A DNA stretch of 64,000 nt from Janthinobacterium sp. J1-1 (GTDB lineage Bacteria > Pseudomonadota > Gammaproteobacteria > Burkholderiales > Burkholderiaceae_D). How positions within the stretch are numbered: the stretch's first letter is position 1; every line of letters begins with the position of its first letter. Under the pieces are notes generated by a model, which searched no databases, was not told the origin of the DNA, and saw only the letters and a list, made by a program, of their open reading frames with translations. Location of the stretch: NCBI RefSeq assembly GCF_030944405.1, contig NZ_CP132339.1:4650001-4714000 (forward strand). Direction: 5' to 3'. Made by a program: the position numbers and the translations under genes. Of the stretch, positions 22,481 through 22,715 are shown one piece after another.

Positions 22481-22537
22481 TGTATTATTCCTCTCATGCG
22501 GTTGGTGGTGTTGCGAACAACATCGGCCGCTGTCAAA

Positions 22538-22710
22538 ATTCTTGGTAGGCATATCAAGACCGGGTAACTGGATGCCGTATCCGCCCTTAGGCTCAAAGCC
22601 AGCGATGTAGATCTCGCACCAGTTACCCACCCTCCATGTCAAGATCGGACAGTATCTTTGGCACCGGCACGCCGGTAGCCCGCATTCACAAGGTAGATCG
22701 CAAGAGGACC
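22538..22710 (+). ncRNA. Candidate IS110 bridge RNA
   Basis: In order: a small hairpin (TCTTG 22540-22544 / CAAGA 22555-22559); a target-binding loop closed by GGGTAACTGG (22562-22571) and CCAGTTACCC (22619-22628); a donor-binding loop closed by CCTC/GAGG and GATC/GATC (22631-22707) with an inner ACCGG/CCGGT hairpin. Loop 1 contains ATCCGCCCT (22579-22587), 8 of 9 identical to the left REP target, and ATGTAG (22605-22610), which pairs with CTACGT on the right target with one wobble. Loop 2 contains ACAGTATCTT (22649-22658), identical to the joined element ends, and ACAAG (22688-22692), complementary to CTTGT at the left end. Ends are approximate. Confidence 0.75.
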
Positions 22711-22715
22711 ACAGC

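Follow-up and report, generated by a model that had tools for sequence, protein, structure and literature searches.

The 235-bp noncoding segment at positions 22481 to 22715 of the window, by which we mean the whole 64,000-nucleotide stretch of Janthinobacterium sp. J1-1 DNA analyzed here, is the left end of an ~1.2-kb IS110-group element. We are highly confident that this element is an IS621-like insertion sequence with a bridge RNA that reads the foot of a REP hairpin as well as the element's own joined ends. The evidence comprises the anatomy of the element, covarying pairs in the RNA helices, guides that match their targets in different families, and a target that is conserved among 33 insertions from six genomes. 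The predicted RNA appears to read both the ends of the element and a host hairpin, and this would explain why copies are found at the same kind of repeat.

Anatomy of the IS110-group element

The element spans the ~1.2 kb from the CT core at 22479 to 22480 to the CT core at 23691 to 23692. On the plus strand, which carries all features described here, the left end (22481 to 22715) opens with the right-donor half TGTAT, as supported by alignment of relatives, and is followed by a gene for an IS110-group DEDD transposase of 319 aa (22716 to 23675). This protein scores over the cut-off for PF01548 and PF02371 and matches the IS621 structure PDB 8wt6 with an E value of 1.4e-101. In a global alignment, 166 of its 319 residues are equal to those of IS621 (52% identity), and D7, E56, D98, D101, and S237 align with the catalytic residues D11, E60, D102, D105, and S241 of IS621. 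As is typical of the IS621-type IS110 group, the transposase combines a DEDD RuvC-like domain with a Transposase_20 domain that has a catalytic serine. Its closest named relatives are from J. lividum PAMC 25724 and Janthinobacterium sp. SUN073 (88-89%).

The right end, ACAGTAT plus the CT core, lies at 23684 to 23692 as read from the sequence, the genome copies, and the same-genus copies. Comparison across copies placed the left CT core, and CT is common to the target and both element junctions, as in IS621-type elements. Noncoding sequence amounts to 235 bp upstream of tnp versus 15 bp between the stop codon and the right core, i.e., the IS621-type layout. The IS1111-group layout, with a long noncoding region and the bridge RNA downstream of tnp, was not found, and the window's sole match to our covariance model (see below) lies upstream of tnp.

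The target is a REP-like hairpin, GTCGGATTACGCGC..GCGCTAATCCGAC (22448 to 22478), with its 3' foot abutting the insertion. The left target plus core, ATCCGAC-CT, is at 22472 to 22480, and the right target, CTAC, is at 23691 to 23694; both were also read in other copies in the genome and in the genus. In a search with the joined flanks, the hairpin part of the query recurred many times across other same-genus genomes, and there was, among the matches listed, one syntenic region without the element (G009, L223). The hairpin in this region ends ATCCGACA, which is not the exact empty target, and the region therefore supports the element boundaries only loosely.

A covariance model places the predicted bridge RNA and its guides

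Because Rfam gave no match at the gathering score in the window, a covariance model of our own was required. This model, R1, was built from 27 left ends of relatives, all outside the genus of the window and drawn from 42 that we tabulated; left out were the eight same-genus left ends as well as L057, L058, L070, L065, L075, L182, and L190. Searched against the window, R1 had only one match up to an E value of 10, at 22539 to 22701 (155.4 bits; E 1.9e-49), which delimits the bridge RNA core of a 5' stem-loop, a target-binding loop, and a donor-binding loop. The RNAalifold consensus of the 27 nongenus left ends consists of the same three parts, and at 25 of its 34 pairs, changes on both sides preserve the pair in at least one sequence. 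The fold of the single sequence is only moderately better than those of shuffled sequences (z −2.58), with 2 of 200 shuffles equally good.

Using R1 on the 6.95-Mb assembly, we found 13 RNAs. Close transposase copies also number 13, with 11 intact and two broken, and each has one of the RNAs beside it. This search scored 150 of its 2322 first-look candidates, and weaker stray RNAs may be missed; within the same scope, the distant IS110-type match L016 (36% identity, same genome) had no R1 RNA among the matches. The broken transposase copies in this genome (L012/L015 and L013/L014) still score as full bridge RNAs.

Loop 1, closed by the stem GGGTAACTGG/CCAGTTACCC, encloses ATCCGCCCT at 22579 to 22587 and GATGTAG at 22604 to 22610. 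The former is the left target guide, ATCCGCC-CT, which differs from the target solely at position 6; the latter is the right target guide, GAU-GUAG, of which GUAG pairs with CTAC. The AU at 22611 to 22612 aligns with A81-U82 of IS621 and would, in the handshake role described in the excerpted text of PMC11208158, pair with T7 and A6 of the donor. Loop 2 carries ACAGTATCTT at 22649 to 22658 and ATTCACAAG at 22684 to 22692. The left donor guide, ACAGTAT-CT-T, equals the right end plus the core plus the first left-end base. The right donor guide, AUUC-ACAAG, was assigned by alignment with IS621 and pairs discontiguously with CTTGTAT, following the pattern in the same source. The donor-loop handshake guide, GU at 22693 to 22694, aligns with G166-U167 of IS621, would pair with C7 and A6 of the target, and is present in 73 of 73 tabulated elements.

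These positions bear on a first-pass annotation of the window, which proposed from the letters and open reading frames that 22481 to 22715 contains a bridge RNA with two guide loops. The out-of-genus model puts the guides exactly where that annotation had them; the sequence of the left target, ATCCGACCT (22472 to 22480), matches the loop 1 guide at 8 of 9 bases as stated; and the proposed IS621-type order and polarity hold, in that the guides of IS621 from an E. coli plasmid record are collinear with those of the window on alignment. The donor assignments needed revision. The 10-base match of the left donor guide is correct, but the right end contributes seven bases (ACAGTAT, 23684 to 23690) before CT and not eight, and ACAAG, although present, does not make up the whole right donor guide.

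A further hairpin at 22498 to 22530, 5' of the conserved RNA core, is predicted by the minimum-energy fold; in the alignment with IS621, nothing corresponds to it. This region is highly variable among the left ends of relatives. We also note that in L183 (G255:C1), a single transposase is preceded by two left-end starts (CTTGTATCT after a GCCCACC target) with a spacing of 100 bp, as though one end had been duplicated.

Guides covary with targets across families

The covariation set comprised 73 element rows. Dropped for identity below 51%, from 75 de-duplicated elements, were L182, L190, L183, L089, L090, L091, L098, and L103; also dropped were the later loci L213 to L215, L065, in which the RNA is mostly deleted, and L075 and L211, in which the left end could not be aligned. 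L217 seems identical to L059, and L218 and L220 are one element at two sites; these were kept as separate rows with a shared guide. The test of left target guides excluded L066, L067, and L068, whose aligned guides lack a terminal CT.

That test included 24 distinct left guides, which differ widely, each compared with its commonest target. The match was 7/7 in 14 cases, 6/7 in 8, 5/7 in 1, and 3/7 in 1. The mean match to the guide's own target was 6.42 of 7 versus 3.42 after permutation, and none of 100,000 permutations reached the observed total, with relatedness between elements not removed. Guides thus track targets, which bears out the first-pass expectation that guide bases covary with the flanks in related IS110 copies. 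Copies at other loci that keep the loop 1 guide sit at nearly the same target motif, which is not the pattern of one guide kept at other target sequences that would have spoken against the first-pass reading. Two guide loops that pair with target and donor, together with guides that covary with targets, mark the RNA as a predicted bridge RNA. Poor left-guide fits were seen in L051 (3/7), L178 (three mismatches), and L067 and L068 (partial).

On the right side, GTAG pairs with CTAC in 68 of 73 elements; one element had no right end read, and two show one-base departures (CTAT and CTGC). In the Xenorhabdus elements L068 and L067, ACAG replaces GTAG as the right target guide; the L068 target, CTGT, matches this guide, whereas the L067 target, CTTG, does not. 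Among the 31 tabulated same-genus copies, CTAC starts the right target in 30, and the right end of L048 was not found by pattern. Watson-Crick pairing at positions 12, 13, and 14 was present in only 11, 8, and 4 of these 30 insertions, respectively. The right target guide in the genus is therefore constrained over 4 bases; the 6-base pairing proposed in the first-pass annotation exists at the window site, and as a general feature of the genus it was rejected. Among the other 41 elements, 50 of 123 bases at positions 12 to 14 were paired versus a permuted mean of 36, and the observed 50 was reached in 23 of 20,000 permutations with relatedness not removed.

The donor side behaves similarly in that two elements with the donor ACGGTATCT carry the corresponding left donor guide, ACGGTATCTT. 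The left donor guide is off its donor by one base in four Methylomonas rows and in L059/L217. The dinucleotide AC follows the encoded left guide and core in 0 of 73 elements, while among the 72 copies with a right end, 68 have AC at this point of the right target; the encoded guide is thus not itself a full target.

Insertions adjoin the feet of REP-like hairpins

All 33 insertions that we read, 13 in this genome and 20 in five same-genus genomes, adjoin the foot of a REP-like hairpin, and these feet end ATCCGAC-CT or its A/C variants. Allowing up to one mismatch, we counted the 13-mer TAATCCGACCTAC 117 times genome-wide (57 plus 60) and the reversed control 0 times. Among the 11 intact copies in this genome, in which both ends were read, 10 are at ATCCGACCT and 1 is at ACCCGACCT; the two broken copies are at one of each, and in both, the right side continues CTAC. 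Elsewhere in the genus, we read full-length copies and set aside fragments of close copies at contig ends, such as those in G015 and G024; of the 20 full-length copies in the five other genomes, 19 are at ATCCGACCT and 1 is at ATCCAACCT. In L157 (G030:C1:2959803-2961556), a same-genus element at this rarer REP variant, the left guide is altered to ATCCGGC-CT and the target differs from it at two positions.

These data also bear on the alternative that the transposase itself recognizes the shape or sequence of the REP hairpin and that the RNA resemblance reflects an ancestral relic or a regulatory RNA. For 23 of 32 distinct left targets, the target recurs in inverted form, with 6 or more of its 7 bases, at most 50 nt upstream, versus 3.1 expected from mononucleotide shuffles; the 32 are those with enough upstream sequence, and they include several nonindependent variants from a single genus. 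Hairpins accordingly matter somehow, and one possible reading is that a cruciform eases opening of the target, so that hairpin feet are favored. Recognition by the transposase would also fit with the use of REP variants with two guide mismatches (L006, L206, and L157) and with the finding that ACCCGAC sites are not significantly avoided. In this comparison, the six genomes together have 551 exact REP sites versus 107 sites of the ACCCGAC variant, and the 30 versus 2 insertions do not amount to a significant preference for ATCCGAC. On the same numbers, discrimination against REPs with a second mismatch was not significant, with 2 insertions observed and ~5 of 32 expected from 107 of 658 sites. 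However, the 24 distinct guides change along with their targets, 9 of the 32 targets have no inverted copy, and IS621 insertion was redirected by a rewritten guide (PMC11208160). We therefore regard recognition by the transposase alone as very unlikely and favor reading by the bridge RNA.

That the matches merely reflect chance similarity of a short left end to the sequence around it is hardly credible. Single short matches were not uncommon when the 235-bp left end was dinucleotide-shuffled 20,000 times, with a 6-mer like the right target guide in 4063 shuffles and ACAAG in 4641. A left guide of at least 8/9 arose in 391 shuffles, left and right target guides separated by the loop distance in 18, and the left donor guide of 9 bases in 17, and no shuffle contained all four matches in order. 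The out-of-genus covariance model also puts the loops identically, and guides track targets in other elements.

A conserved guide-target mismatch at position 6

The left guide calls for ATCCGCC, whereas the host REP gives ATCCGAC, resulting in a guide C versus a target A at position 6. The target has A at this position in 33 of 33 same-genus insertions; the guide has C in 30 of 31 tabulated same-genus elements and G in the remaining one. Three uninterrupted exact ATCCGCCCTAC sites are present in the genome, and 0 of 13 insertions are at such a target. Avoidance of exact sites was rejected as the cause of the mismatch, since three sites are too few for their emptiness to mean anything. The distant elements L066 and L210, which have the same seven guide bases, sit at ATCCGCCCT and are exact over those bases; in L066, the one disagreement is at a core-binding base.

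Most simply, a single mismatch is tolerated and the element makes use of the REP that is abundant locally. A second possibility, which we consider rather unlikely, is that in this clade the handshake guide, instead of the left guide, determines the target base at position 6, which lies two bases to the left of the core. The mismatch agrees with the published handshake guide, as the donor-loop GU would pair with A6 and the neighboring C7 once strands have been exchanged. Cases consistent with handshake pairing are position 6 in the genus, in L073, and in the Methylomonas donor, and position 7 in L055. Opposing cases are L221 and L068 with T at position 7, L067 with A at position 7, L051 with T at position 6, and IS621, whose usual target carries G at position 6. 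The independent events are too few for these counts to decide between tolerance and the handshake account.

In the Methylomonas elements L053, L055, L057, and L058, the left donor guide ACAGTCTCT faces the donor ACAGTATCT with a standing C-versus-A mismatch at donor position 6. This donor mismatch mirrors the target mismatch of the genus, and its A is matched by the target-loop handshake AU.

Discussion

By analogy with IS621, the left end would be transcribed into a bridge RNA, in which the loop 1 left guide would pair with the bottom strand of the REP foot ATCCGAC-CT with one mismatch and the right guide GUAG with the top-strand CTAC. Loop 2 would pair with the joined ends of an excised circle, ACAGTAT-CT-TGTAT, and the donor guides are consistent with such joined ends. 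The circular intermediate, for which the predicted junction is ACAGTATCTTGTAT, and the catalytic steps, in which the DEDD/serine recombinase would swap strands at the shared CT, are both modeled on IS621.

The bridge-RNA mechanism of IS110 elements was published in 2024. The order of the guides, the CT core, the handshake guides, and the discontiguous pairing of the right donor guide are likewise on record (PMC11208160; PMC11208158). We consider the element a well-supported further case of this mechanism and not a new one; it adds two modest observations, on the position-6 mismatch and on hairpin feet. Together, the 33 insertions in six genomes constitute a natural dataset: they share almost a single guide, and each host genome has dozens to >100 near-identical REP sites. 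The conserved one-base mismatch, at a position unlike that in IS621, has a simple testable account in handshake pairing; if that reading were true, a natural guide mismatched at position 6 would keep its target provided that the handshake base fits. Mismatch tolerance is also a practical question for bridge-RNA tools.

No bridge-RNA element from Janthinobacterium was found in the titles and abstract openings of the papers listed by our searches, a scope outside which subscription papers and ISfinder lie; one listed paper, PMC11767486, names both IS110 and Janthinobacterium, and the element may already be named. Insertion into REP sequences is known for ISPa11, ISPpu9, and ISPpu10 (PMC1525189; PMC11187229), and our sole addition to known REP targeting is the frequent use of hairpin feet as targets in this clade. 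These three elements resemble ours in REP insertion, a comparison of insertion habit and not of guides. The excerpted text of PMC11187229 treats ISPa11 as a member of the IS1111 family, in which the noncoding region is downstream of tnp, whereas it is upstream in our element. ISCro4 (PDB 9t56; E 3.4e-101, nearly equal to the match to 8wt6) is about as similar as IS621 when judged by transposase sequence alone.

IS621 is a close REP-targeting relative (PMC11208160). Our element shares with it the order and polarity of the guides, the donor ACAGTAT-CT-TGTAT, the handshake dinucleotides AU and GU, a REP target, and one standing mismatch. It differs in its left guide, ATCCGCC, in the REP of its host, and in its transposase, with the 52% identity given above, and has a longer left end with the extra hairpin and a different 5' stem-loop. 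The standing mismatch is at position 6 (C versus A) in our element and at position 4 in IS621, in which the guide ATCGGGC faces the usual target ATCAGGC (PMC11208160).
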